The position numbers and the translations under genes were made by a program. A DNA stretch of 20,027 nucleotides from a virus: positions 1 to 20,027 of IMG/VR virus record IMGVR_UViG_3300021964_007453; one strand, given 5' to 3'. Below are positions 3,085 to 17,548 of the stretch, piece by piece. The first letter of the stretch is position 1; each line of letters starts with the position of its first letter. The notes beneath the pieces are model-generated. The model was not told where the DNA came from. It saw only the letters and a list, made by a program, of their open reading frames with translations, and did not search any database.

Positions 3085-4119
3085 ATGACAAACAGAGCAA
3101 AAGCATTTTTTATTAACGGAGGAGCAGGAAGAGTTCTTGCTAGTATTCCTGCGTTGGAAAAATATTATGAAGAGACTAGCAAAGACTTTATTATTGTAGC
3201 AGAAGGCGGAATGGATTTATACAAAGGACATCCAATACTACATGAACGTGCATATGACGTATGGCACAAGGGTATATTCCAAGATAAAATTATTAATATG
3301 GATGTAGTAACACCAGAACCATACAGAGTTTGGGAATACTATAATCAGAAATGTAATCTACAGCAAGGTTTTGATATTGAAATAAATGGTAAAGGAATAA
3401 GAGAATTACCTAAACCTTTTATACATCTTTCTCAAGAAGAAATAGTTAACGGAAAATCTTGCATTAAAGAAGTTGTTGAAAATGTAGGCAGTAATAAAAC
3501 GATTGTTTTCCAGCCTTTTGGTAGAGGAGTAGGAGAACACCAAGGATTTATTACTGATCCAAGCGGAAGAAGTTTTGAATATGCTAATATGGTAAGCATT
3601 GTTAAAAAATTGCAAGAAAAGGGATTTGCTGTAATTGTTATGAGCGAAATACAGTTTGACTTTCAAAAAGAAGGAACGCCGAAGCCTGTAGCACAACCTT
3701 CGGGAATTAGTTTAAAGCAATGGGCAGCAATTATTAAAGAAGCTGATTATTTCTTAGGCTGTGACAGTGTAGGTCAACATATTGCACATAGTTTAGACAA
3801 ACCTGCAACTGTAGTTACTGGCAGCACTTTTGCAGAAAATATTAGTTTTCCAGAAAATGAAAAATTTGACATACAAGATATGGGCGAAGGAAAACGTAAA
3901 TATGATCCTATCAGAGTTGTTCCAGACGAAGTAGTATCAAAAAACAATGATGGCATAATGGCAATGAATAGCTTAATTGAAGATGAAATTATTAAGTCAT
4001 TAGTAAAGAATTATGAAAAATATATTAAAAAAACTTCTTTAACTACTTCTCCTAAGAAGACTATAGAAAAAAATAAAGGAACAAAGTTAGTTCCTGGTTT
4101 AGCTACGATTAAGGAATAA
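3085..4119 (+). CDS. GT-B glycosyltransferase, heptosyltransferase (GT9)-like
   Basis: This 344-residue protein is predicted to have two Rossmann-like halves. The N-terminal half opens with FFINGGAGRVLASIPALEKY (residues 8-27), the glycine loop plus 'x2-P-x-L' helix of GT-B enzymes related to ADP-heptose:LPS heptosyltransferases. The C-terminal half has TIVFQPFGRG (139-148), the strand FAVIVMSE (181-188), and WAAIIKEADYFLGCDSVGQH (213-232) followed by KPATVVTGST. This matches the GT9 nucleotide-sugar region, normally D-S-G-P-x-H near a K-P-x-V-x-L-F-G strand; here it reads D-S-V-G-Q-H. The last 50 residues are Lys-rich and probably flexible. It would transfer a nucleotide-activated sugar, plausibly ADP-heptose given the heptose genes on the opposite strand (inference). 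AGGA precedes the ATG, and the gene sits between the oxygenase and carbamoyltransferase with gaps of only 4 and 2 nt. Confidence 0.75.
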   Translation: MTNRAKAFFINGGAGRVLASIPALEKYYEETSKDFIIVAEGGMDLYKGHPILHERAYDVWHKGIFQDKIINMDVVTPEPYRVWEYYNQKCNLQQGFDIEINGKGIRELPKPFIHLSQEEIVNGKSCIKEVVENVGSNKTIVFQPFGRGVGEHQGFITDPSGRSFEYANMVSIVKKLQEKGFAVIVMSEIQFDFQKEGTPKPVAQPSGISLKQWAAIIKEADYFLGCDSVGQHIAHSLDKPATVVTGSTFAENISFPENEKFDIQDMGEGKRKYDPIRVVPDEVVSKNNDGIMAMNSLIEDEIIKSLVKNYEKYIKKTSLTTSPKKTIEKNKGTKLVPGLATIKE

Positions 4120-4121
4120 TT

Positions 4122-5918
4122 ATGACAGATAATAAAGACATTTGGATAGCAGGTATTACACGAGGACATAATGGCGGAGTTTGCCTACTGAAAAATGGCG
4201 AAGTAATTTTTTCTACAGAAGAAGAAAGATTTACCCGTAGAAAATACGACGGTGGTCCGTTAGCTTCAATGTTAAAGATAAAGGAATATACTGATAAACT
4301 AGATCTTATGGTTATTGCTCATACCCAAACTCTTGCAGACACGTCTGGCGTAATTGATTTTACTGGTGACGATATGTATACTGGATTTGCTAGAAAACTT
4401 AGGCTAATTGATCATAAGATACCTAGCTACAATAAACCAGGCGGCGAACATCCTCAAGTATTAGACTTTAGTCATATGCATCATAGATTACATGCTGCTT
4501 GTGCATTTTATCGAAGCGGATTTCAAGATGCAGTTGCAGTGATTGTTGACGGCGCCGGAACATTTATTCCTATGACAACTGACCACGGACAAACTTGGGG
4601 ATGGGAAGTTGAATCATTGTTTGACTGTGGATACCCAGCAACATTTAAAACTTTATATAAGCATATAGGTATGCGGGATGCTGCTGGAACTCAAATAGAA
4701 AATTTAGAAATACAAAACGAAACATACGAAAGTGTAATTAGTGACAGAGCCGGAATTGTTAAAGTTTATGAAGCAGTGACAGAATACTGCGGATTTAGCG
4801 CAATTGAAGCTGGAAAGACTATGGGATTATTTCCATATGGCGAAGAAAATGATAATATTCCAAAACTCTTTCAAGAAGACGGCATTGTGCCATTAAGTAA
4901 CAGAAATCTTTTTATTCCAACATACCCAAATAGTGCATTGGTTAATTCTAATCTATTTACTGAGCTAAAAGATGGATTGGCTAGTGATGTAACTAAACTT
5001 CAAAATAGAAGAGATTTAGCATACGCTTGTCAGACACAAACTCAGGAACAAGTCGTAAATCTTATTAGAAAAGCAGTTGAAATGTCAGGAAAAACTAATG
5101 TAGTTGTTAGTGGCGGGTACGGTCTTAACTGTGTTGCTAACTATCATTATTTAGAAGCATTAAAAGATGACGGAATTAATTTATATATAGAGCCAGTTTC
5201 AAATGATGCTGGAACAGCAATGGGTGCAGCAATGATGGCGTATAAACATATGACTGACGATGCAACTGTTGAGACAGCTACAGATAGTTTATATTTAGGA
5301 ATGCATTATGATTATAAAGACTCGGAAATTGAAGAACTAGCTAATCAATATAATGCAACAGTAACTAATGCAACAAATAATGATTTAATTGAATTAATTA
5401 CAAATAAAAATATTGTTAGTATATTTCAAGGAGCATCCGAAGCAGGCCCACGTGCATTAGGTAACAGAAGTATACTGTACGATCCGACAGATCCAGATGG
5501 TAAAGATCATGTTAATGAAGTAAAGCGTAGAGAATATTTCCGTCCTTTTGCAGGCAGTATCTTAGAAGAAGATGTACACGAGTGGTTTGATTTGCGTGGT
5601 ATGGAAAGTTCACCTACAATGATGTATGCAGTGAACTGCCAGCCGGGTATTGAAGAAAAGATTCCTGCTATTATTCACGTAGACGGAACGTGTCGTATAC
5701 AAACAGTAAACAGAGAACAGAATCCTCATTACTACGATATTATCAAAGCATTTAAAGAAAAAACTGGTTGTCCAATTATCTTTAATACTAGCTTTAATCT
5801 AGGCGGCGAACCATTAGTTGAAACGCTAGACGATGCATTATGGACATTACAAGAAAGTGATATTGAATACCTATACTTACCTGAATATGGAAAGTTATTG
5901 TCTATCAAAAACGCATAA
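4122..5918 (+). CDS. O-carbamoyltransferase (NodU/CmcH/TobZ family)
   Basis: This 598-residue protein has the full family length and both domains. The Kae1-like N-terminal domain starts with IWIAGITRGHNGGVCLLKNG (7-26), then has EEERFTRRKYDGG, the metal-site segment DFSHMHHRLHAACAFY (115-130), VDGAGT (142-147), GGYGLNCVAN (331-340) and NDAGTAMGAA (361-370). The C-terminal carbamoyltransferase domain has GASEAGPRALGNRSIL (437-452), KRREYFRPFAGSI (468-480) and FNTSFNLGGEPLVET near the end. Family members make carbamoyl-adenylate from carbamoyl phosphate and ATP and place the carbamoyl group on a sugar hydroxyl. All key segments are intact, so an active enzyme is expected. The acceptor is unknown; the preceding glycosyltransferase makes a transferred sugar likely (inference). 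AAGGA is 6 nt before the ATG. The stop codon lies inside the next late promoter. Confidence 0.93.
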   Translation: MTDNKDIWIAGITRGHNGGVCLLKNGEVIFSTEEERFTRRKYDGGPLASMLKIKEYTDKLDLMVIAHTQTLADTSGVIDFTGDDMYTGFARKLRLIDHKIPSYNKPGGEHPQVLDFSHMHHRLHAACAFYRSGFQDAVAVIVDGAGTFIPMTTDHGQTWGWEVESLFDCGYPATFKTLYKHIGMRDAAGTQIENLEIQNETYESVISDRAGIVKVYEAVTEYCGFSAIEAGKTMGLFPYGEENDNIPKLFQEDGIVPLSNRNLFIPTYPNSALVNSNLFTELKDGLASDVTKLQNRRDLAYACQTQTQEQVVNLIRKAVEMSGKTNVVVSGGYGLNCVANYHYLEALKDDGINLYIEPVSNDAGTAMGAAMMAYKHMTDDATVETATDSLYLGMHYDYKDSEIEELANQYNATVTNATNNDLIELITNKNIVSIFQGASEAGPRALGNRSILYDPTDPDGKDHVNEVKRREYFRPFAGSILEEDVHEWFDLRGMESSPTMMYAVNCQPGIEEKIPAIIHVDGTCRIQTVNREQNPHYYDIIKAFKEKTGCPIIFNTSFNLGGEPLVETLDDALWTLQESDIEYLYLPEYGKLLSIKNA

Positions 5919-7282: not shown

Positions 7283-10200
7283 ATGGCAAAAAGAAAAATA
7301 GATAATTATGTTTTTAGTCCTGGAATGTCTTATAAAGGATACGTTTATCCAGATGCATATTCATTACTAGACTCAAATACAAATTATATAATTGCAGAAG
7401 CAATTGCATATATTACTAATGAAGTAAGCGAAGGCAATGCACCTTTTGATGGATATACTTATAACGAAGACAAGTGTAAAAGAGATGTTGGATTTATATT
7501 AAGCGCATATAAAAATGATTTAAGATATGGCGGAAATGCTTTATTATATGACTATGCAAGCCGGTATTATGAAAACGGAGTTGCACAAATTGACGGTGAC
7601 AGACTACCTGAAGTATCAACACATACATATATAAGAAATTTAATTACAGACTATATTTTTACAAATACTGCATTTACAAGTTTGCAGACAGAAGTTGGTC
7701 AAGTAATTGATATATCTAAAGTAGTATATACTGATTTGCAATATACTCCTACAGGTGTAAACTATAAACCTGCTACCGGAGTAATGATTTTAACAATTGG
7801 ACAACATTCTCTTAATGTTGGTGACGAAATTCATATAACAGAATCAGGATTAACATTTACATGTGCTTTAGATGCTCATGCAACTAACCATGCATATCCT
7901 AGAGGATCTGGTGCACCAAATGCTTCCGGTCATGATCCGTTTTGGGATGCACCTGTTAAAATTACAGCAGCTACAGAAACAACAATTACAATAAATGTTG
8001 GAATATCATCTAATACATCACCGCATCTATTTGTCAGTGCATTGTCTAATTCAGTAAAGTCCGGACCATCAAGCAAGATAAAGGTACTAGCTAACAGATT
8101 AGTAGACACTATTGAAAACGGATTAACAAAACTTCCAACTAGAATTAAAAATGGTTACGGATATATTAAGATACAAGGAAAATATGATCTATCTGATTTA
8201 TTACTTATATCTAACAATACTTCTAATACAACTTTGTTCAACTTTACGAACAACGATACCGGAGCAGTAATATCTACTACAAATGAAAAAATTGTTAGTT
8301 TAGCATCGGATGAAGACTTTCCAAAATATCAACAAGCAACTGATGGTGTTACCACTCTAAAATTAAATGCAGACACTAGTACACAATCTGCAACAGACGA
8401 TATACAAATCTTTATAGAAAAAACAGAGAATGGTGAAAGTGTAACAACTACTAGACCGTATGCATTTGGTACAGATGCTATTGAACGTATGCGTGTTGCA
8501 CCTGCTCTATCAATGCTTGATGCTGACTTTGAATATGGTCTACAGCCTACTAAGTGGTCAGCTATTGGTATGATGCGCGGATATCCGAGTATATATGAAG
8601 TACCGGGATCAGAAAAGAATGTACTTACTGTGGTAACTGATGCATCCGCAGGAACAGATGGCATCGGCCAATCATTGATTACTGTAACTACTGTAGGTCC
8701 GCATGGTATTGAAGCAGGACAGCCTGTTACAATTAAAGCACTTGAGGATAGTGTTTCTGGTGCAAGTAGAGCTGAAGGTTCGTTTGTTGTAATTTCAGTT
8801 CCAACGTCAACTACATTTACATATTATGCTAAAGCAAAAGTAGGAACAGTTAACCCAACAACACTGTCTACAACCTATACACAACTAAGAGAAGCTGGAT
8901 TCTATACAGGATCAAATATTAGTGTTAGCCCAGAATTTACAGTAGTAAGTAACGGATTTAGTGGAATCATGACAGCAGAATTAGATGTTGCAGTTGGATC
9001 TAATATTATACCGTACGACGGAAACACCCCAGAACTTGGTGCTCCGTTAGTGTCCGGATCAAATATTCCTGAAGGTGCTCAAGTTACACAAGCTATTACG
9101 CAATCATCAGGCGGCGGCTTATTTTTAACAGCTGATCTTGTTGGTGATGCTGGCGCAGGAGATAACCAGCTAACTGTTGCTGATGCCACAGGCATAATTA
9201 CAGGATTAGCATTTGACAGAGGCGACGGCACAGCAATTTATATTAATCAAATCGAAGGTCAAACTTTAACATTCAACGATACCTTTACCAGACCAATTGT
9301 AGGCGGAACTGCTACTTATTCAGGAATTTCAGGAAGTAATATTGATGGTATTGGATTTGATGCTCAATTTGATATTAGTTATACAGGAGGTGTCTATACT
9401 GTAGATACTATTGCTAACGGTGGCGAAGCATACGAAGTTGGTGATAGAATTTTTATAACAGCTGAAGATGTTGGAGGGATTACTCCTGCAAACGATTTAG
9501 TTCTTATTGTTGATAGTGTGTTTAGTATAGGTGTAATTGACGGAGTTACTGTTGAAGGTACTGCGTTTAGTGGAACTGGCCAAGTTGCTGGTCTTATTCC
9601 GGATGTAGACGGCGGATTAGGATTTAATGGTACATTTAATGTTGGATATACTGATGCCGCATATGATACAATAACAATTAGTCAAGAAGGTGAAGCATAT
9701 ACAGTTAACGACATTATTGTTATTAGTGGCGATACTATACCAAGCGGATCATCGCCTACAAACGATATTAGAGTTGTAATAACAGGAATAGACAGTATTG
9801 GTGGAGTTACTTCAGCAACTGTGAGCGGTACTGCTCCTGATGCTAGTGCAGAATATGATCCGATCACTTCAAGCGAATATGCATATAGTGGGTCAACAGG
9901 TTCTGGAGCAGAATTTAGAATTAATAGAGACGGGTCAGTTTATAGTGCAACCGTAACTAGTATTGGATTAAATTATCTTCCAACTGAAACATTTGTTATA
10001 TCCGGTTCTGAGTTAGGAGGATCAAGTCCAACTAATGATTGTACTATTACAATTGATAACGTAGACGGATCGGGCGGTATAACAGCAGTAAGCACAGCTG
10101 GAGTAGCAGCAAATACAAATACTATTGAAGATGTATCAGGATCAAATCTTGTAGGTTCAGCTGCTCAATTTACAGTTGATATTGCTGCTGGAGCATATAC

Positions 10201-13200
10201 TGTAACAGTAGATCAAGGTGGTCAAGATTATGGAGTTAACCAAACATTTACAGTTTCTGGAAGTGAGCTTGCTGGTGCAGATACTACTAATGATTTAACA
10301 ATAACTATTACGGCAGTAGACGCTACTGGGTTAATTAGTACAGTATCAAGTGCAGGTACAGCAAATAACGGTACAGCAACATTTACCGGAGTATCTGGAA
10401 TTAATCAAGCTTCGACTGGAACAGGAGCATTGTTTGATGTAGTTAGAAATGCAGGAACATACAGTGTAACTTTAGACAATGGCGGTACTGATTATGCAGT
10501 AGGTAATAGAATATTATTATTAGGATCACAACTTGGTGGTCAAAGCCCGTTAAACGACATTACTGTTTCAGTTGACACAGTAACAACGGGAGTAATAGCA
10601 ACAATTAGTGAGTCTTACGAAGAAGCTGTGTTAGGTGACGTTGGTGACTTTATTGCAACTGTTACTATGTCTGAATCATCAACTGGCACTATTAGCAGGC
10701 TAGACGAAATTATATTCAGTTCGTTAGCAACAATTGAAATAGAATTTCCAGCAGCGCACGGACTAGTACCTGGAGATACATTTATTGTTACTACAACTAG
10801 TGACGATGGTGTAAACAATCATGAATTATCTGCAGGATCATTTATTGCAACAAACATGCCTAGTATTACAACACTAAGATTCCAGGCTAGAGCTCCGGGC
10901 AATATTACCGATACCGACGATGCAATTCTCGGAACTATATATCCAAGACCAGATAGCTTCTTTATTCACAGACCGTATGACGGTGGTGTACAACTTGGTA
11001 CAGGCGGTCCACAACACGGCGCACAAGCAATACGTCAAAGTAAAAACTATATTCGTTACCAATCAGGTAAAGGTATTATGTATACAACTGGTGCATTGTT
11101 TGCTCCGAGTTACGACTTGCGTAGTGTTACATCAAACGGTGTAGAAAAAGGCTCAACAATTACCATTACAACAGACGATAACGATCATGGATTACAAATT
11201 GGCGGTATTATTAGACTTATTGGGGTTGAAACAGAAGGTTATAACAGTGGACCAGAAACTTATTTTGAACCTAGTTTTGACTATACAGTTTCTAACATTA
11301 TTGACGAAAGAACTTTTGAAGTCTTAGCAGAACGCAGACTAGGCGCTACAAGCGCAGTATTAGGCTTTGCGGCACAGATGAGTGTTGTAAGTTGGCACGG
11401 TGCAACTGTACGTTCGGGTATATTTGATGATCAAAACGGTATTTTCTGGGAATACGACGGCACAAACTTAAATGTAGCACAACGTACAGGAACAAAGCAA
11501 ATTGCAGGCACTATCGCTATGAAAGTTGACGAAAATGTTATTACTGGAACAAATACTAGATTTCAAGATCAACTTAAAGCAGGTGATAGAATTATTATCA
11601 AAGGCATGACACACGTTGTAACTAATATTACAAGCGCCACATCAATGACAGTAACACCGGACTTTAGAGGAGTTATTGATATTAGCGGCGCAAAAGCTAT
11701 GTTAATTAGTGATAAGAAAGTCAAACAACAAGACTTTAATTTAGATTCACTTGATGGTACTGGTCCTAGTGGTTATAATTTAGACTATGCTAAGATGCAG
11801 ATGATTGGTATTCAGTACAGTTGGTACGGTGCTGGTTTCATTGACTTTATGCTACGTGGATCAGATGGTAACTTTGTATTCTGTCACAGAATGCGTAACT
11901 CAAACGTAAACACAGAAGCATTTATGCGTTCAGGTAACTTGCCTGTGCGTTATGAAGTTACCAACGAAGGACCTCCAGGAAAACTTATAGAAGCAATGGA
12001 TGCAAGTCAAAATACAATGGAACTTGAGGATACAAGTTTCTTCCCAACAACTGGAACTGTATATATTGATAATGAAATTATTAGATTTACTGGAAACAAC
12101 AAGGCTACAAATACACTTACAGGACTAACAAGAGGAAGTACTCTTACAAACTTCCAAGCAGGTGCATCTAGAGCTTATGCAGCAGGCGATGCTGCTACAC
12201 ACGATAATAAAACTGGAGTAATTTTGATTAGTAGTACAATTACTCCGCTAATTAGTCACTGGGGATCAGCATTTATTACAGACGGCGGATTTGATGAAGA
12301 TAGAGGATATATCTTCTCTTACACAGAACCAAATATTAATGTTACTGTTATTAAACAAACTGCTTTCTTAATTAGACTAGCACCTAGTGTTTCAAATGCT
12401 ATCATCGGTGACTTAGGAGAAAGAGAACTTCTAAATAGAGCACAACTACTATTGCAAGGTATCGAATGTACTTCAGAAACTGGCACCGGAGGCATTGTTA
12501 TTGAAGGTGTTCTTAATCCTAAAAACTATCCGTTGAATCCAAACAACATTACATGGCAAACACTTGCTACAGAAGCCCAAGGTGGACAACCTAGCTTTGC
12601 GCAAATTGCTGCTGGCGGTTCTGTACAGTGGAGCACAGGTGCAGCAGCGGTTAACACAACAGCTACAGCAGCATCGACTGCAACAGCACAATTAAATTCA
12701 GGTCAGAATAACACAGGTAACAACAGAGATACTGTTTGGATATCTGCTACTGACTATAGAAATACTTTTGGATCTAATGATATAGGAATTGTAAGTGGAT
12801 TAGCACTTTCGGGTAATGGTATTCAAGCTGATACCTTTATTACAGGAGGATATATATCTCCTACAAGTAACTACGGTTACTTTAGAATTAGTCCAAGAAC
12901 TAATGGCAGCACAAGCAGAAATACATCGAATGCATTTACTGTATCATTTGGTGGCGCATTAGAAAACAGAAACTTTGCTTATTTTGATAAAACTAGTTTT
13001 GAAGCATCTAATGCAACAGCAGGTACAGCAGTTACACAATCAGGCGGCGATGTTACCTTTCCTTCAAACTCTTCAATTGCAAATGTTTCATTAGAAAACT
13101 TTGCTGGAACTGAGTATTATGAAGTTACATTTAATAACACCTTTAGTGGAACATTAGCAGCTGGAACAGGACAGGTTCAGTTTGAATTTATTGAACCTCC

Positions 13201-13420
13201 GTATGCACAGCCAGGCGAAACTGTATTTTCGTTTATTGCACAGCCAGGCGAACGTGCTGAACTTATGCTAGACAAATTGAAAGAATTAACAAATACTACA
13301 CTAGGCGGACGTGGTACATTCCCGAACGGCCCAGATGTTCTTGCAATTAACATCTATAAAGTTACAGGTGCAGCGGTTGATTCGAATGTTATTCTAAGAT
13401 GGGGTGAAGCACAGGCTTAA
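7283..13420 (+). CDS. Giant virion structural / tail-fibre protein (2045 residues)
   Basis: One uninterrupted frame of 2045 residues. The N-terminus has YVFSPGMSYKGYVYPDAYSL, then CKRDVGFILSAYKNDLRYGG (65-84), a Cys-Arg-Asp...Tyr-Gly-Gly-Asn module common in large structural proteins of marine T4-like phages. Residues about 679-1115 form five degenerate tandem repeats, listed separately. Later parts include FFIHRPYDGGVQLGTGGPQH, NYIRYQSGKGIMYTTGALF, a WYGAGFIDFMLRG segment and YIDNEIIRFTGNN followed by LTGLTRGS. The C-terminus contains LTNTTLGGRGTFPNGPDVLA. Composition is Thr/Ser/Gly/Asn-rich and beta-prone, without signal peptide, membrane segment or catalytic motif. A long fibre or host-contact role is inferred from length, repeats and partner genes. 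Its ATG follows the upstream stop by 2 nt, with GGAAG as ribosome site. Its stop overlaps that of the convergent phosphatase gene. Confidence 0.9.
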   Translation: MAKRKIDNYVFSPGMSYKGYVYPDAYSLLDSNTNYIIAEAIAYITNEVSEGNAPFDGYTYNEDKCKRDVGFILSAYKNDLRYGGNALLYDYASRYYENGVAQIDGDRLPEVSTHTYIRNLITDYIFTNTAFTSLQTEVGQVIDISKVVYTDLQYTPTGVNYKPATGVMILTIGQHSLNVGDEIHITESGLTFTCALDAHATNHAYPRGSGAPNASGHDPFWDAPVKITAATETTITINVGISSNTSPHLFVSALSNSVKSGPSSKIKVLANRLVDTIENGLTKLPTRIKNGYGYIKIQGKYDLSDLLLISNNTSNTTLFNFTNNDTGAVISTTNEKIVSLASDEDFPKYQQATDGVTTLKLNADTSTQSATDDIQIFIEKTENGESVTTTRPYAFGTDAIERMRVAPALSMLDADFEYGLQPTKWSAIGMMRGYPSIYEVPGSEKNVLTVVTDASAGTDGIGQSLITVTTVGPHGIEAGQPVTIKALEDSVSGASRAEGSFVVISVPTSTTFTYYAKAKVGTVNPTTLSTTYTQLREAGFYTGSNISVSPEFTVVSNGFSGIMTAELDVAVGSNIIPYDGNTPELGAPLVSGSNIPEGAQVTQAITQSSGGGLFLTADLVGDAGAGDNQLTVADATGIITGLAFDRGDGTAIYINQIEGQTLTFNDTFTRPIVGGTATYSGISGSNIDGIGFDAQFDISYTGGVYTVDTIANGGEAYEVGDRIFITAEDVGGITPANDLVLIVDSVFSIGVIDGVTVEGTAFSGTGQVAGLIPDVDGGLGFNGTFNVGYTDAAYDTITISQEGEAYTVNDIIVISGDTIPSGSSPTNDIRVVITGIDSIGGVTSATVSGTAPDASAEYDPITSSEYAYSGSTGSGAEFRINRDGSVYSATVTSIGLNYLPTETFVISGSELGGSSPTNDCTITIDNVDGSGGITAVSTAGVAANTNTIEDVSGSNLVGSAAQFTVDIAAGAYTVTVDQGGQDYGVNQTFTVSGSELAGADTTNDLTITITAVDATGLISTVSSAGTANNGTATFTGVSGINQASTGTGALFDVVRNAGTYSVTLDNGGTDYAVGNRILLLGSQLGGQSPLNDITVSVDTVTTGVIATISESYEEAVLGDVGDFIATVTMSESSTGTISRLDEIIFSSLATIEIEFPAAHGLVPGDTFIVTTTSDDGVNNHELSAGSFIATNMPSITTLRFQARAPGNITDTDDAILGTIYPRPDSFFIHRPYDGGVQLGTGGPQHGAQAIRQSKNYIRYQSGKGIMYTTGALFAPSYDLRSVTSNGVEKGSTITITTDDNDHGLQIGGIIRLIGVETEGYNSGPETYFEPSFDYTVSNIIDERTFEVLAERRLGATSAVLGFAAQMSVVSWHGATVRSGIFDDQNGIFWEYDGTNLNVAQRTGTKQIAGTIAMKVDENVITGTNTRFQDQLKAGDRIIIKGMTHVVTNITSATSMTVTPDFRGVIDISGAKAMLISDKKVKQQDFNLDSLDGTGPSGYNLDYAKMQMIGIQYSWYGAGFIDFMLRGSDGNFVFCHRMRNSNVNTEAFMRSGNLPVRYEVTNEGPPGKLIEAMDASQNTMELEDTSFFPTTGTVYIDNEIIRFTGNNKATNTLTGLTRGSTLTNFQAGASRAYAAGDAATHDNKTGVILISSTITPLISHWGSAFITDGGFDEDRGYIFSYTEPNINVTVIKQTAFLIRLAPSVSNAIIGDLGERELLNRAQLLLQGIECTSETGTGGIVIEGVLNPKNYPLNPNNITWQTLATEAQGGQPSFAQIAAGGSVQWSTGAAAVNTTATAASTATAQLNSGQNNTGNNRDTVWISATDYRNTFGSNDIGIVSGLALSGNGIQADTFITGGYISPTSNYGYFRISPRTNGSTSRNTSNAFTVSFGGALENRNFAYFDKTSFEASNATAGTAVTQSGGDVTFPSNSSIANVSLENFAGTEYYEVTFNNTFSGTLAAGTGQVQFEFIEPPYAQPGETVFSFIAQPGERAELMLDKLKELTNTTLGGRGTFPNGPDVLAINIYKVTGAAVDSNVILRWGEAQA
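9317..10627 (+). repeat. Five tandem protein-coding repeats of about 87 residues
   Basis: Units run approximately 9317-9574, 9575-9856, 9857-10123, 10124-10381 and 10382-10627 (82-94 residues each). The shared pattern is SG...G-x-x-F-x-V, then Y-x-VT(V/I), x-x-GG-x-x-Y-x-V/G-x-x-(I/F)-x-I-x-G-S-x-L-G-G-x-S-P-x-N-D, then T-I-x-(V/I)-x-x-V-D and a (V/I)-S-x-x-G-x-A end. Units 3-5 are the closest to each other and unit 2 the most diverged. The copies differ widely at the DNA level, so they are old rather than recent duplications. They are likely stacked beta domains of the fibre shaft (inference). Confidence 0.8.
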
Positions 13421-13431
13421 ATTGCCTGTGC
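13409..13431. other. Perfect inverted repeat spanning both convergent stop codons
   Basis: GCACAGGC (13409-13416) and GCCTGTGC (13424-13431) form an 8-bp perfect stem with loop TTAAATT. The plus gene stop (TAA 13418-13420) and the minus gene stop (TTA on the plus strand, 13417-13419) both lie in the loop and overlap. Both proteins end through the stem with Ala-Gln-Ala. It has no T-run on either side, so it is not a classical terminator, but it could mark or protect both mRNA 3' ends. Confidence 0.65.
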
Positions 13432-14016
13432 AAACTCTAGTAAATTATCAAATATATAAGTTTGTTTTGCTAGTTTCTTATATGTAAATTTACTAAGTTG
13501 TTGTTCGGTTTCTAATCCGTAACCAGTTCTTACTAATACAGGCCTTGCACCGATTTTAACAGCAGCTTTAAGATCACTTAGTTTATCTCCTACATAAAAT
13601 CCAGATTTAAATTTAATATATGGAAATTCTTTTTCGCATCGTTTAAACATACCAGTATTAGGTTTTGCAAATATATCTTTTTTATCACTTGATTCACTAT
13701 AATATAATGCATCAATACTAGGACATCCTGCCTCGCCTAGTAGCTTAAACATATATTCATGTATTGCATCAACTTCTTGTGTAGACATAATGCCTTTAAA
13801 TATTCCGCCTTGATTAGATATGATAGCTATCTTATGACCTTTTTGTCTTAGTAATGCTACTGCTTCTAAACTTCCATCTATAGGAATAAAGTCTGCAGGC
13901 TTAGTAACATATGTTCCTAAATCTTCATTAATAGTACCGTCGCGATCTAGCCCAACTACACAGTTTGTATACTTAGAAGGATCGTCCTGTGCTTGCGGTC
14001 CCCACATATTATCCAT
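13417..14016 (-). CDS. gmhB: HAD phosphatase, D-glycero-D-manno-heptose-1,7-bisphosphate 7-phosphatase-like
   Basis: This 199-residue HAD-family protein has all four motifs: VGLDRDGTINED (D24 nucleophile, D26), ISNQGG with S67, K118-P119, and YVGDKLSDLKAA with D144/D148. DRDGTIN with the SNQGG element is the signature shared by GmhB and the phosphatase domain of HisB. GmhB removes the 7-phosphate from D-glycero-D-manno-heptose-1,7-bisphosphate during ADP-heptose synthesis. HldE-like and HldD-like genes in the same run support that substrate. The Cys/His zinc loop usual in GmhB is absent: the stretch before K118 reads YYSESSDKKDIFAKPNTGM. Substrate choice is thus less certain, and another sugar phosphate is possible. 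The start overlaps the cupin gene by 8 nt; an internal ATG (Met4, 14007) is an alternative, and both lie before the conserved core. Confidence 0.8.
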   Translation of the reverse strand: MDNMWGPQAQDDPSKYTNCVVGLDRDGTINEDLGTYVTKPADFIPIDGSLEAVALLRQKGHKIAIISNQGGIFKGIMSTQEVDAIHEYMFKLLGEAGCPSIDALYYSESSDKKDIFAKPNTGMFKRCEKEFPYIKFKSGFYVGDKLSDLKAAVKIGARPVLVRTGYGLETEQQLSKFTYKKLAKQTYIFDNLLEFAQAI

Positions 14017-14410
14017 TAGATTCTTCTTTAACTACTTTTTGACTGTCGCCAGCAATAATTCTATAATTGTCTTCTACACTATCTGGAGTACTTACTTCTG
14101 TAATACTCGATCCGTCTTCTAGTGCTTCGAGTTGATGCGGCAAACAAGGAGGATTATTCCATACATCACCTTCTTTAAGTTCTGCTTCTATAAGCTGAGC
14201 ATTTTTTGGATCAATATATCTTAATTTAAACTTTCCGCTATTTACAAACCAAGTTTCGTCTTTTTCTTTGTGAAAGTGCATACTAAATTTATTACCTGCT
14301 TTTTCAAAGAACAGTATTTTCCCGCAATACTTGTCGTTAGATGCAAATATAAGTTCATATCCCCATCCCTTTGGCACTGCACCTTGTAGTCTTGTTGGTG
14401 TGTCGGTCAT
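14009..14410 (-). CDS. Single-domain cupin, possible sugar-phosphate isomerase or epimerase
   Basis: This 133-residue protein is a compact beta-barrel cupin. Cupin motif 1 is MHFHKEKDETWFVNSGKFKL (44-63) with metal ligands H45, H47 and E52; motif 2 centres on NNPPCLPHQLEAL (86-98) with H92. The arrangement resembles the cupin domain of type II phosphomannose isomerases and related sugar-phosphate proteins, including an early GWGYELIFASN stretch (a W-G-x-E-x-x-(F/W) element typical of that group). In this operon it could act on a heptose or other hexose intermediate, or bind one (inference); a regulatory cupin is also possible. AGAGG lies upstream of the ATG. The gene is 11 nt downstream of the oxygenase and overlaps the phosphatase by 8 nt, so translation is probably coupled. 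Confidence 0.8.
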   Translation of the reverse strand: MTDTPTRLQGAVPKGWGYELIFASNDKYCGKILFFEKAGNKFSMHFHKEKDETWFVNSGKFKLRYIDPKNAQLIEAELKEGDVWNNPPCLPHQLEALEDGSSITEVSTPDSVEDNYRIIAGDSQKVVKEESNG

Positions 14411-14421
14411 TGTTTTTCCTC

Positions 14422-15060
14422 TTAATTATGAATGTTTAAGTCTGCTATATTAAAGCTCATACTAATGCGCTCAACATTACTATGGAATGGATACACGGTG
14501 TGATTAAGAACTGACGGAAACAAATATATGTCTCCTGTTACAGGGGTAACATGTATGTTACTTATAACTCCGTCATCAGCATGTACAAATCCTAATTCTC
14601 CGGGACATCGCGTATTACTGTTAATAGGAATCTTTTCCTTTTCATTAGCAATTTCTTCAGGTATATCTATGTAAATAATTGAGCTAATAATCCCAGTATG
14701 AGAATGGATAGGATTAAATTCATATTGCTTTTGATAATTTATCCAAGGACCGGGTTCTGCAATTACAAAGTCAACTCCGTTTATTTGATCATAATTATTA
14801 TCAAATACATCTTTTTTATATTTGTTTAAATTATGTTCTGCATAGTTCTTAATATGCTCACTGATAAACATAATAAAATAATCCTTGTCATTAATTTCAG
14901 AAGTTAATTGTAATTGTATATTGCCCGCAAGATTCTTACCTCTGCTAATATTTTTTTCTCGTGTGGTATCTGAAACATTCTTTAAAAATTTAACTTGCTC
15001 GTCTGTAAGTTTTGACTTATATATTGAAGGCCCAAACGGATCTCTAATCTCATACTTCAT
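14422..15060 (-). CDS. 2OG-Fe(II) oxygenase (2OG-FeII_Oxy_5-like)
   Basis: This 212-residue protein shows the layout of the phage/bacterial 2OG-FeII_Oxy_5 family. FNPIHSHTGIISSIIYIDIP (115-134) has H119 and H121 at the metal-site position, IYLFPSVLNHTVYPF (178-192) gives distal H187, and VERISMSFNIADLN supplies R198 for 2-oxoglutarate. The motif is H-x-H rather than the usual H-x-D, as I recall for this family, so it does not by itself imply loss of activity. AAGGA lies 8 nt upstream of the ATG, and the start overlaps the hldD-like gene by 11 nt. The substrate is unknown. Membership in an operon of heptose enzymes suggests hydroxylation or oxidation of a sugar or of a glycosylated virion protein (inference). 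Confidence 0.8.
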   Translation of the reverse strand: MKYEIRDPFGPSIYKSKLTDEQVKFLKNVSDTTREKNISRGKNLAGNIQLQLTSEINDKDYFIMFISEHIKNYAEHNLNKYKKDVFDNNYDQINGVDFVIAEPGPWINYQKQYEFNPIHSHTGIISSIIYIDIPEEIANEKEKIPINSNTRCPGELGFVHADDGVISNIHVTPVTGDIYLFPSVLNHTVYPFHSNVERISMSFNIADLNIHN

Positions 15061-15868
15061 TTATATAATCCTTAATTTTTTTAAAGTTTATGTCTATAAT
15101 ATTAGTTAACTTTTTTGTATTTGCACAGGTATAATCTTGGTATTGGCCTTTGAGATTTTCGGGCATTGCAATGTATTCGATTTTTGCATTATACTTACTA
15201 GCAACAGCATTAGCAACTTCTTCAAAACTTTCTGGAATTCCTGTGCCTATATTGTAAATTCCTGATGTATCTTGTTCTAGCATTAAATCATGCACTTTAC
15301 AAATATCTTCTACACATACAAAGTCTCTCTTATAATTATTACTGTTTTCAAATAGTTTAATAACACCAGTATCTTTTGCTTGTTTTGTAAATTTAGTATA
15401 CGGGCTTGCTTGATCACCTTTATGATCTTCACCAAGACCGTATACATTAAAATATCTAAATCCTTGTACTAGAACTTGAAAATTATCAATATTTTGCTCA
15501 ACAAATCGATCAAATAAATATTTTGTCCAAGCATACGGACTTTGTGGTTGTAAAGGCCCAGCTTCAGTAAAGTGTGTTGTAGGACCGTATACGCTTGCGC
15601 TGGACGCATATTGAAAGTTTGTACCCATCATGTCACATGCTTGTAATAACCGCATACTGTGTTCAAAGTTTTGCTCCATAATAAGTTCAACATCAGTTTC
15701 TGTTGTAGAACTGTTAGCACCAATATGTAAAACCCAATCGTAATTACTAGGATCTGGAATAGTATTAGGAACGTATTCCCACCCTTCAACTTCGTGACCT
15801 TGTGTTTGCAAATATAATGCAAGATTAGATCCTATAAATCCTTTGTGTCCTGTAACTAATATTCTCAT
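15050..15868 (-). CDS. hldD: NAD(P)-dependent ADP-L-glycero-D-manno-heptose 6-epimerase-like
   Basis: This 272-residue short-chain (extended SDR) epimerase has the Rossmann motif G-H-K-G-F-I-G (7-13) and the catalytic Y112-x3-K116 (YAWTK). Several segments track bacterial HldD closely: IGANSSTTETD (49-59), FQYASSASVYG, GFRYFNVYG (136-144), EDHKGDQAS with K150 (the second catalytic residue of HldD), YKRDFVCVED (179-188), GIYNIGTG (203-210) and PENLKGQYQDYT. HldD inverts carbon 6 of ADP-D-glycero-D-manno-heptose, the last step of ADP-heptose synthesis. E. coli HldD is about 310 residues; this one is shorter, mostly in the N-terminal cofactor region and after the substrate loop, as is common in phage versions of enzymes. 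It overlaps its neighbours by 4 and 11 nt in a tightly coupled operon. Activity is likely because catalytic residues are kept. Confidence 0.88.
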   Translation of the reverse strand: MRILVTGHKGFIGSNLALYLQTQGHEVEGWEYVPNTIPDPSNYDWVLHIGANSSTTETDVELIMEQNFEHSMRLLQACDMMGTNFQYASSASVYGPTTHFTEAGPLQPQSPYAWTKYLFDRFVEQNIDNFQVLVQGFRYFNVYGLGEDHKGDQASPYTKFTKQAKDTGVIKLFENSNNYKRDFVCVEDICKVHDLMLEQDTSGIYNIGTGIPESFEEVANAVASKYNAKIEYIAMPENLKGQYQDYTCANTKKLTNIIDINFKKIKDYINEV

Positions 15869-16413
15869 TGCTCTTTTACCAAATTCATAAAAAATACCTG
15901 TGTAAGTCTAGAATAATCTAAACTTCTTCCAAATCCTAAATTATTACTACGATGATATTGAAACCCGTTATATAAAATAAGTCTGTTATATACATTACCT
16001 ATTCTGATAGTTTCTTCCCACTCGTCTTCGTTTCTTAAATCTTCGCCTTGATGATTGTACCCGTATACTAAACCTGTGTTTTTGTGTCTAAAAATACTGG
16101 TACCATATTCTAAAGGTGCATCGGGCGTTAAGTATAGAACACCTGCTAAATGTTTTGTATCATGATGAATCCAATTGTCGTCTTCAAATTCTGTGCAAAT
16201 TTGAAATTCTTTGCTTGCGCCTTCATGATCTACAGGAGTACCAATTAATTCTTCCAGTTTGTGATTTAGCTCTTGTTCGTATTCTGTATTTTCCCACTTT
16301 GCCCGCACTCCGGGATAATTTCCACGGATATCAAAATTGCATTGTAATGCAAATTTTCTAATTTTTTCAGGGTCGTCTAGAAAATCGTCTATTACCATAA
16401 GATTAAGATTCAT
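15865..16413 (-). CDS. DUF6445-like 2OG-Fe(II) oxygenase-fold protein
   Basis: This 182-residue protein starts NLNLMVIDDFLDDPEKIRKF (2-21), the usual 'fixed-point' opening of DUF6445-type proteins, followed by GNYPGVRAKW (31-40). A metal-site pair H83/D85 lies in NWIHHDTKHLAGVLYLTPDA (80-99), then YGTSIFRHKNTG, YNRLILYNGFQYHR (142-155) with distal H154, and SRLTQVFFMN with R169. The order and spacing fit a 2OG-Fe(II) prolyl-hydroxylase-like fold. Members are frequent in marine phages and bacteria near sugar-modification genes; their substrates are unknown. GGAG is 6 nt before the ATG. The start overlaps hldE by 11 nt and the stop overlaps hldD by 4 nt (ATGA), so it is expressed with both. Confidence 0.8.
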   Translation of the reverse strand: MNLNLMVIDDFLDDPEKIRKFALQCNFDIRGNYPGVRAKWENTEYEQELNHKLEELIGTPVDHEGASKEFQICTEFEDDNWIHHDTKHLAGVLYLTPDAPLEYGTSIFRHKNTGLVYGYNHQGEDLRNEDEWEETIRIGNVYNRLILYNGFQYHRSNNLGFGRSLDYSRLTQVFFMNLVKEQ

Positions 16414-17548
16414 TTATTTCTCCTATAATATTTGTTGTTGAATAACCGTCAACTGTTGACACAAGGTGTACTTGTGCCAAATCGTGTCCTACAACTTGTT
16501 CTACTGTATAGTCGCCGCCTTTAACTATTACATGCGGCTTAATTTCTTTAATTAATTCGTATGGTGTATCTTCGTGGAATACAATTACTTCGTCGATCCA
16601 CGGTAATATTTCTAATTGACTAATGCGCTTTGCAATATTATTAACAGGGCGATCTTCGCCTTTAAGACGCTTCACGCTTGCGTCACTATTAATTCCTACA
16701 ATAAGTTTGTCACCAATGCTACGAGCTTCTTGTAGTAGCTCAAAATGACCCGTGTGTAGTATATCAAACACTCCGTTAGTAAAGATAACTCTTTCTTCTA
16801 GATCATGTTGCTGTAGCATGTATGTGCCTACGTGCTTAACACTTTCTGTAGAACCTTTAACAGCTACCTTTAAGCATTCTTGGTAATCGTATTCTCGTGT
16901 AAGTGCATACACAAACGCAGCTAAGAAACAGTCACCTGCACCAGTTACATCTGCAACTTCTTTTGCATCTACAGGAACATTGTATTCGATACTGTCTATG
17001 GTAGCAACTACATTTTCGCCAGCATTGGTTGTAATAATATTACCTTGCCAATCTGTAAATCCAAACTTAGTAAATTCACTGTAATTAGGTTTTACTAGCC
17101 AAGCGCCTTCGTAATGACTTGCATCTTCTTTAGGATCAACAATAACACGACAATTGTATGTATTAAGATGTTTAATGATCTCAACACTTTCGTCTAGTGT
17201 ACCTTTGTTATAATCACTTAGGATAACATAGTCGTATTCGTCAAAGTCTTGTGATAGAATATATGTAAGGAATGTATTACCATCTGCAATGTAATCGTCG
17301 TCGATGCGTGTTATGTAATGACCGTCACAGATTACTCTAGTCTTTACACTAGCTTTGTCAAAGAAATCAACAAGCTCAACATCTACACCGAGACTTTTTA
17401 GATTCTCATAAACTAAGCCAGCACCGCCAACTGTTTCAACTTCACGCTGATATGTTACTACTGGAACAGGTGCTTCTGGACTAAGTCTTTTTGATGTACC
17501 GTAAATATATTTGTCGACGATTATGTCGCCTATAACTAAAACCTTCAT
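16403..17548 (-). CDS. hldE: Bifunctional heptose-7-phosphate kinase / heptose-1-phosphate adenylyltransferase-like
   Basis: This 381-residue protein fuses two domains in the order of bacterial HldE. The N-terminal PfkB-type kinase (1-245) has VIGDIIVDKYIYGTSKRLSP (5-24), SPEAPVPVV, an ETVGGAGLVYENL sugar-binding segment, VDPKED and the anion-hole DVTGAGDCF (D200, G203-D206). The C-terminal nucleotidyltransferase (250-381) has FTNGVFDILHTGHFELL (256-272) with HxGH at 265-268, GINSDASVKRLKG, VIVKGGDY and GYSTTNII (368-375). HldE phosphorylates heptose-7-phosphate at C1 and later adds AMP to give ADP-heptose. E. coli HldE is 477 residues; the shortage is mainly in the kinase domain (missing lid-like segments). 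Catalytic motifs are kept, so an active minimal enzyme is plausible. The start is fixed by the kinase opening strand but has no Shine-Dalgarno sequence. A consensus sigma70 promoter lies directly upstream. Confidence 0.9.
   Translation of the reverse strand: MKVLVIGDIIVDKYIYGTSKRLSPEAPVPVVTYQREVETVGGAGLVYENLKSLGVDVELVDFFDKASVKTRVICDGHYITRIDDDYIADGNTFLTYILSQDFDEYDYVILSDYNKGTLDESVEIIKHLNTYNCRVIVDPKEDASHYEGAWLVKPNYSEFTKFGFTDWQGNIITTNAGENVVATIDSIEYNVPVDAKEVADVTGAGDCFLAAFVYALTREYDYQECLKVAVKGSTESVKHVGTYMLQQHDLEERVIFTNGVFDILHTGHFELLQEARSIGDKLIVGINSDASVKRLKGEDRPVNNIAKRISQLEILPWIDEVIVFHEDTPYELIKEIKPHVIVKGGDYTVEQVVGHDLAQVHLVSTVDGYSTTNIIGEINES

Follow-up and report, generated by a model that had tools for sequence, protein, structure and literature searches.

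A phage block of predicted heptose-synthesis genes and its association with genes for GT9-fold and carbamoyltransferase proteins

The heptose genes

The DNA considered here (the window) is the entire 20,027-base record IMGVR_UViG_3300021964_007453 of a marine phage, itself only a fragment of a genome, with a GC content of 36.8%. Its minus strand carries, from 17548 down to 13417, six closely packed open reading frames, neighbours overlapping by 4-11 bases apart from one 11-base gap, which is the arrangement that would be expected of a co-translated operon. Three of the six resemble the ADP-heptose enzymes HldE, HldD, and GmhB, as an earlier note made from the sequence had claimed, and the family scores agree. 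Outside this block, 8-10 kb away on the opposite strand, lie genes for a protein with the fold of GT9 heptosyltransferases (3085-4119) and, immediately 3' of it, a carbamoyltransferase (4122-5918). Most of 80 loci examined in related viruses show the gene order of the window, and this repetition excludes a chance grouping.

The first gene of the block (16403-17548, minus strand) encodes a 381-amino-acid (aa) HldE-like protein, a predicted fusion of heptose-7-phosphate kinase and heptose-1-phosphate nucleotidyltransferase. Its top family matches are PRK11316 (291 bits; curated equivalog cut-off 521), TIGR02198 (176; 345), and TIGR02199 (166; 181.5), the last against ~42 bits for its nearest rival among specific nucleotidyltransferase families. 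The domains come in the HldE order, a compact kinase of ~251 aa followed by a nucleotidyltransferase of ~130 aa, and the motifs GAGD, SPEAPVP, HxGH, and STT vary little or not at all across an alignment of 31 relatives. In a structure model of the protein (predicted local distance difference test score 90), the kinase lies closest to HldA (4e84/4e8y; Z 27.6, E 1.5e-21), with HldC among the matches. The next fold follows at E 2e-12, and other ribokinase-family folds reach Z values of up to 25, near enough that the distinction of the kinase is carried by sequence. The C-terminal motif TVDGYSTT (T-x-x-G-x-STT) lacks the Arg that has been linked to CTP/UTP use (PMC11461863); consequently, ADP-heptose would be the expected product.

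The HldD-like protein (15050-15868, minus strand; 272 aa), a predicted ADP-heptose 6-epimerase, scores 240 bits with TIGR02197 versus 72 for GalE, below the equivalog cut-off of 274.6, and matches 1eq2 with an E of 2.6e-48. It is compact, ~40 aa shorter than Escherichia coli HldD, mostly in the N-terminal cofactor region, and its Rossmann GxxGxxG is present. Y112 and K150 align with E. coli Y140 and K178, the catalytic bases of HldD; a Y140F mutant structure of HldD appears among the matches. In an alignment, E. coli S116, Y140, K144, and K178 are identical in the window, in three cyanophages, and in G049, a 236,751-base record that is the closest collinear relative; K150 is invariant in 76 phage sequences.

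The last gene of the block (13417-14016, minus strand; 199 aa) encodes a GmhB-like HAD-IIIA phosphatase whose best family is PRK08942 (beta anomer), at 132 bits versus 64 for NF050049 (alpha anomer), and which matches 4pnh/3l8h. The HAD residues D24, D26, K118, and D144 are retained. However, the zinc-binding Cys/His loop of GmhB is replaced throughout the phage family by a Ser-rich loop (YYSxSSxKxDxYAKPN-like). The claim that the catalytic motifs are intact has, then, held up for HldE, HldD, and the HAD residues but not for the zinc ligands. In some HldE loci (L004, L007, L052, L057-L060), no GmhB-like gene is seen nearby.

Selection, loss, and possible exchange

Six module genes were tested, and all are under purifying selection, with median ratios of nonsynonymous to synonymous substitution rates (dN/dS) of 0.12 for HldE, 0.18 for HldD, 0.24 for the GmhB-like gene, 0.11 for the cupin gene of the block, 0.08 for the carbamoyltransferase, and 0.10 for the GT9-like gene. 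Together with the right catalytic residues, this bears out the assertion that three of the four classical steps of the pathway are encoded here, and the enzymology of the earlier note is likely right.

It has been asked by Sullivan et al. 2010 whether such genes are functionless passengers ("stuffer DNA" for headful packaging), a question left open for large cyanophages, as was whether their "LPS genes" function (PMC3037559). Large genomes and a patchy distribution would suit this explanation. Nevertheless, given dN/dS values of 0.08-0.24, invariant catalytic residues, an order conserved in dozens of divergent viruses, and a kinase that appears to have been exchanged while its step was retained, it is very improbable for the module.

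Evidence for that apparent exchange comes from G049. Most neighbouring genes are 76-93% identical between G049 and the window (57% for the DUF6445 gene of the block), whereas the HldE proteins (G049 gene at L165:5705-6961) share 70.8% identity in the nucleotidyltransferase domain and 36.5% in the kinase domain. The G049 kinase is nearer to the standard form (TIGR02198, 231 bits). Thus, the kinase domain seems to have been exchanged or reshaped between the two, with the pathway step kept. G049 also has two more nucleotidyltransferases of the HldE C-terminal type (C1:212961-213356, L176, and 47397-47660, L166), one of which has a separate HAD protein and part of an epimerase in its vicinity.

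Changes are also seen where HldE is missing. The GmhB-like proteins of five HldE-less records (L088, L093, L134, L141, and L160, probably one lineage) have lost both the nucleophile, D24, and K118, while 35 other aligned GmhB-like proteins retain all four HAD residues. Furthermore, the HldD-like protein of the HldE-less record G050 has R at the K178 position. 

These results bear on the idea that the true substrate is another sugar phosphate or nucleotide sugar, the enzymes only resembling those of the heptose pathway. In its favor, all three enzymes fall under the equivalog cut-offs, the kinase falls ~60 aa short of the TIGR02198 model, the epimerase is short as well, the phosphatase is without a zinc site, and no GmhA is encoded. 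However, by a wide margin the heptose families are the best-scoring ones for all three proteins, the lysine equivalent to K178 is kept, HldE, HldD, and the phosphatase travel together, the partners lose catalytic residues in the absence of HldE, and G049 maintains the same step with an unlike, nearer-to-standard kinase. We therefore regard a different sugar as improbable.

The first step of the pathway

As the earlier note had observed, GmhA, the first enzyme of the pathway, is not in the window, where no SIS_2 (GmhA) domain was found. Its suggestion that GmhA might lie elsewhere in the phage probably does not hold: no SIS_2 match was obtained in a first set of 50 relatives, to which P-SSM2, S-CAM1, and S-SSM7 belong, or in 29 further records, including G049 (79 overall). 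Of 14 control genomes, 9 were positive in the same search. Probably, the pathway begins with GmhA supplied by the host.

Certain cyanophage genes are annotated as "phosphoheptose isomerase" (L081:15113-15457, which is PSSM2_311 of P-SSM2; L082:11086-11409; L083:11097-11432). Their products (MSKRYCIDIDGTIC...; 107-114 aa) are small DxDGT HAD proteins that match the EcbF/BcbF capsule phosphatases (E 1e-8) and are without a SIS domain, and the isomerase label appears wrong. The cyanophages thus seem to have a phosphatase in this slot and to leave the isomerase to the host; the label hides that the first pathway step falls to the host.

The GT9-fold protein and the carbamoyltransferase

The protein encoded at 3085-4119 on the plus strand (phrog_8954; T4-GC 302 in cyanophages) scores 19.2 bits with PF01075, under the gathering score of 22 (the S-CAM1 homologue reaches 22.0). 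A PDB sequence search gave no meaningful match; consequently, fold comparison was used. An AlphaFold2 model (predicted template modelling score 0.83) matches GT9 heptosyltransferases with Z values of 23.3-18.6, including 3tov (23.3), WaaF (1psw; 21.8), TibC (4rb4; 19.9), and WaaC (2h1h/6dfe; 19.1). Three plant NDH-PSI chains that share the fold (Z 18.5-19.7) fall in the same range, and there is then a break from 18.5 to 12.7, the value of the next GT-B class. The GT9 assignment rests on this fold and not on hhalign, which gives a probability of only 21% (E 0.001) against WaaF/WaaC, though the motif is aligned. That motif, D227-S-V-G-Q-H232, fits the ADP-heptose binding motif D-[ST]-x-x-x-H (WaaC D261), and D227, S228, Q231, and H232 are invariant in the family. 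A scan of genome contigs with the GT9-like protein yielded only seven matches, all on contigs of marine metagenome-assembled genomes with phage-like neighbourhoods, and the family therefore looks viral.

The gene at 4122-5918 on the plus strand encodes a NodU/NolO-type carbamoyltransferase, which scores 201 bits with PF16861 (cut-off 27) and 90 bits with PF02543 (cut-off 24).

The two proteins accompany HldE across viruses. Of 29 virus records reached through HldE alone, 27 carry the GT9-like protein, and the same 27 have the carbamoyltransferase; the exceptions, G010 and G034, are fragments that contain neither. A scan of 50,697 annotated phage records gave 54 that match HldE; a GT9-like match covering 80% or more of the query occurs in 23, every one of which lies within these 54. 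The carbamoyltransferase stands alongside the GT9-like gene in 78 of 80 loci and is retained in 42 of 44 GT9 loci without heptose genes nearby. That the pair is kept without HldE suggests that the transferase and carbamoyltransferase form the core, donor synthesis having been added in some viruses. It is plausible that other hosts supply ADP-heptose to the HldE-less viruses.

Neighbouring genes

The remaining genes of the block are, as the earlier note described, interleaved with the heptose genes. A 2-oxoglutarate (2OG)-Fe(II) oxygenase (14422-15060, minus strand; 212 aa; PF13759, 2OG-FeII_Oxy_5, 64 bits) is missing at this position in G049, where the cupin and HldD genes abut. The small cupin (14009-14410, minus strand; 133 aa; phrog_7851, Cupin_1; T4-GC 307 in cyanophages) occurs in 68 of 80 HldE loci and in the P-SSM2, S-CAM1, and S-SSM7 modules. 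For the 182-aa protein of 15865-16413 (minus strand; PF20043, phrog_1644), databases give only DUF6445 or "minor coat protein"; the label of 2OG oxygenase that the earlier note gave it is plausible, and the gene is kept in G049.

Downstream, the block adjoins a convergent structural gene (7283-13420) for a 2,045-aa virion protein; upstream of it are a NUDIX gene and two tail/head genes. On the 5' side of the GT9-like/carbamoyltransferase pair lie a phrog_9740 conserved protein, a further 2OG oxygenase, and two glycine- and cysteine-rich phrog_4205 proteins (10-672 and 682-1518). The phrog_4205 proteins also stand upstream of the GT9-like gene in many relatives and are candidate glycan acceptors. 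Rfam and tRNA scans of the window gave no matches.

Proposed function

The earlier note was correct about donor synthesis, but it stopped there and omitted the genes for transfer and carbamoylation at 3085-5918; the purpose of the operon is likely visible in these genes outside 13417-17548. Taken together, the results have led to a proposal that we consider, on balance, probable: the phage makes ADP-heptose from a host precursor, transfers the heptose to an acceptor on the virion or the host surface, and carbamoylates it. In this model, host GmhA would convert sedoheptulose 7-phosphate to D-glycero-D-manno-heptose 7-phosphate, which the HldE-like kinase would phosphorylate. The GmhB-like phosphatase would then remove the C7 phosphate, the nucleotidyltransferase would form ADP-heptose, and the HldD-like enzyme would epimerise it at C6, giving ADP-glycero-manno-heptose in the infected cell. 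Finally, the GT9-fold protein would move heptose onto the acceptor, for which a virion protein or a glycan of the host surface is the likeliest candidate, and the carbamoyltransferase would carbamoylate the transferred sugar. The pairing of the heptose genes with the transferase and carbamoyltransferase in dozens of relatives suggests that the sugar coats the virion or the host surface.

Several points weigh against this proposal. Many records, the largest of 223 kb, have the GT9-like and carbamoyltransferase genes but no HldE, so the pair is independent of phage-made ADP-heptose. Counts of co-occurrence among related, non-independent records overstate the number of events, and most records are fragments. 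In 41 phage GT9-like sequences, an invariant Arg16 occupies the site of Asp13, the catalytic base in all known heptosyltransferases (PMC5713226); the phage protein may thus use another acceptor chemistry or may not be a transferase. In addition, the HldE, HldD, and GmhB homologues share the shortfall from equivalog cut-offs described above, and for this virus we infer the reactions, the nucleotide, the carbamoylated product, the acceptor, and the host origin of GmhA.

A virion protein is suggested as the acceptor because the genes are surrounded by others for tail and structural proteins, with glycine-rich proteins and oxygenases close by. A more specific form of the proposal, which we hold only tentatively, is that the Asp-less GT9 variant links heptose to tail proteins that are hydroxylated or rich in glycine, after which the carbamoyltransferase caps it. 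If true, this would explain the purpose of viral nucleoside diphosphate (NDP)-heptose enzymes.

Alternatively, the ADP-heptose may feed host lipopolysaccharide (LPS) or capsule, the phage remodelling the envelope, perhaps so as to prevent superinfection or keep other phages from adsorbing. This is the classical use of ADP-heptose, the authors of cyanophage and pelagimyophage studies interpret such genes as LPS genes (PMC3037559, PMC7029224), and the precedent for carbamoyl-heptose is the LPS core (PMC8005017). However, cyanophages share the module although cyanobacterial LPS is without heptose (PMC4515613), the open reading frame list and family scans revealed no recognisable gene for LPS assembly or export in the window, and the genes are embedded among virion genes. 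We consider such a use rather unlikely.

The earlier note had also supposed that the host supply is missing, different, or limiting. A missing supply fits cyanophages, given the heptose-free LPS of their hosts, but nearly all relatives here are without the cyanophage marker psbA: of 31 records tested, G049 among them, 30 do not have it, the exception being that of L130. Furthermore, the window tail gene is nearest Sinorhizobium phage Phosso and PA5oct-type Pseudomonas phages (~35% identity), closer to such jumbo phages than to cyanophages. Consequently, the virus is probably not a cyanophage.

Comparison with known systems

A heptose module of this type is already known from cyanophages and from work on viral NDP-heptose. 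The T4-like cyanophages P-SSM2, S-CAM1, and S-SSM7 carry the same module (T4-GC 302-308), called "LPS genes" (PMC3037559, PMC7378029), with the GT9-like protein, the carbamoyltransferase, the HldE nucleotidyltransferase and kinase, a HAD phosphatase, the cupin, HldD, and oxygenases, and with structural genes near. In these phages, HldE is split into two genes, whereas in the window it is fused, and the window has a GmhB-like phosphatase rather than the EcbF/BcbF-like HAD annotated as an isomerase.

Of the bacterial systems, E. coli HldE-GmhB-HldD with WaaC/WaaF shares the pathway steps, the HldE and HldD catalytic residues, and the GT9 fold; unlike it, the window lacks GmhA, the zinc loop of the phosphatase, and a known LPS acceptor, and Arg replaces Asp13 in the GT9-like protein. 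Pseudomonas WapO, which carbamoylates LPS core heptose (PMC8005017), likewise pairs a carbamoyltransferase with heptose transfer. The TibC/AAH autotransporter heptosyltransferases, which glycosylate protein with ADP-heptose (PMC4358343), share the GT9 fold at ~9% identity to the phage protein, but the catalytic Asp110 of TibC, the counterpart of WaaC Asp13, is not conserved in the phage family. Among the papers searched, none described a phage carbamoyl-heptose system.

ADP-heptose synthesis by viral enzymes has been demonstrated (Tang 2024, as relayed in the commentaries PMC11461863 and PMC11573728), and the likeness to that system lies in heptose nucleotidyltransferases encoded by viruses. 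The window operon differs in having a GmhB-like phosphatase and no GmhA. According to PMC11461863, viruses have no phosphatase for this pathway; the GmhB-like protein would fill that step. The reason why viruses carry NDP-heptose enzymes is described as unsolved in PMC11573728, and the GT9-fold protein and carbamoyltransferase that almost always accompany those considered here offer a concrete, testable proposal for their role.

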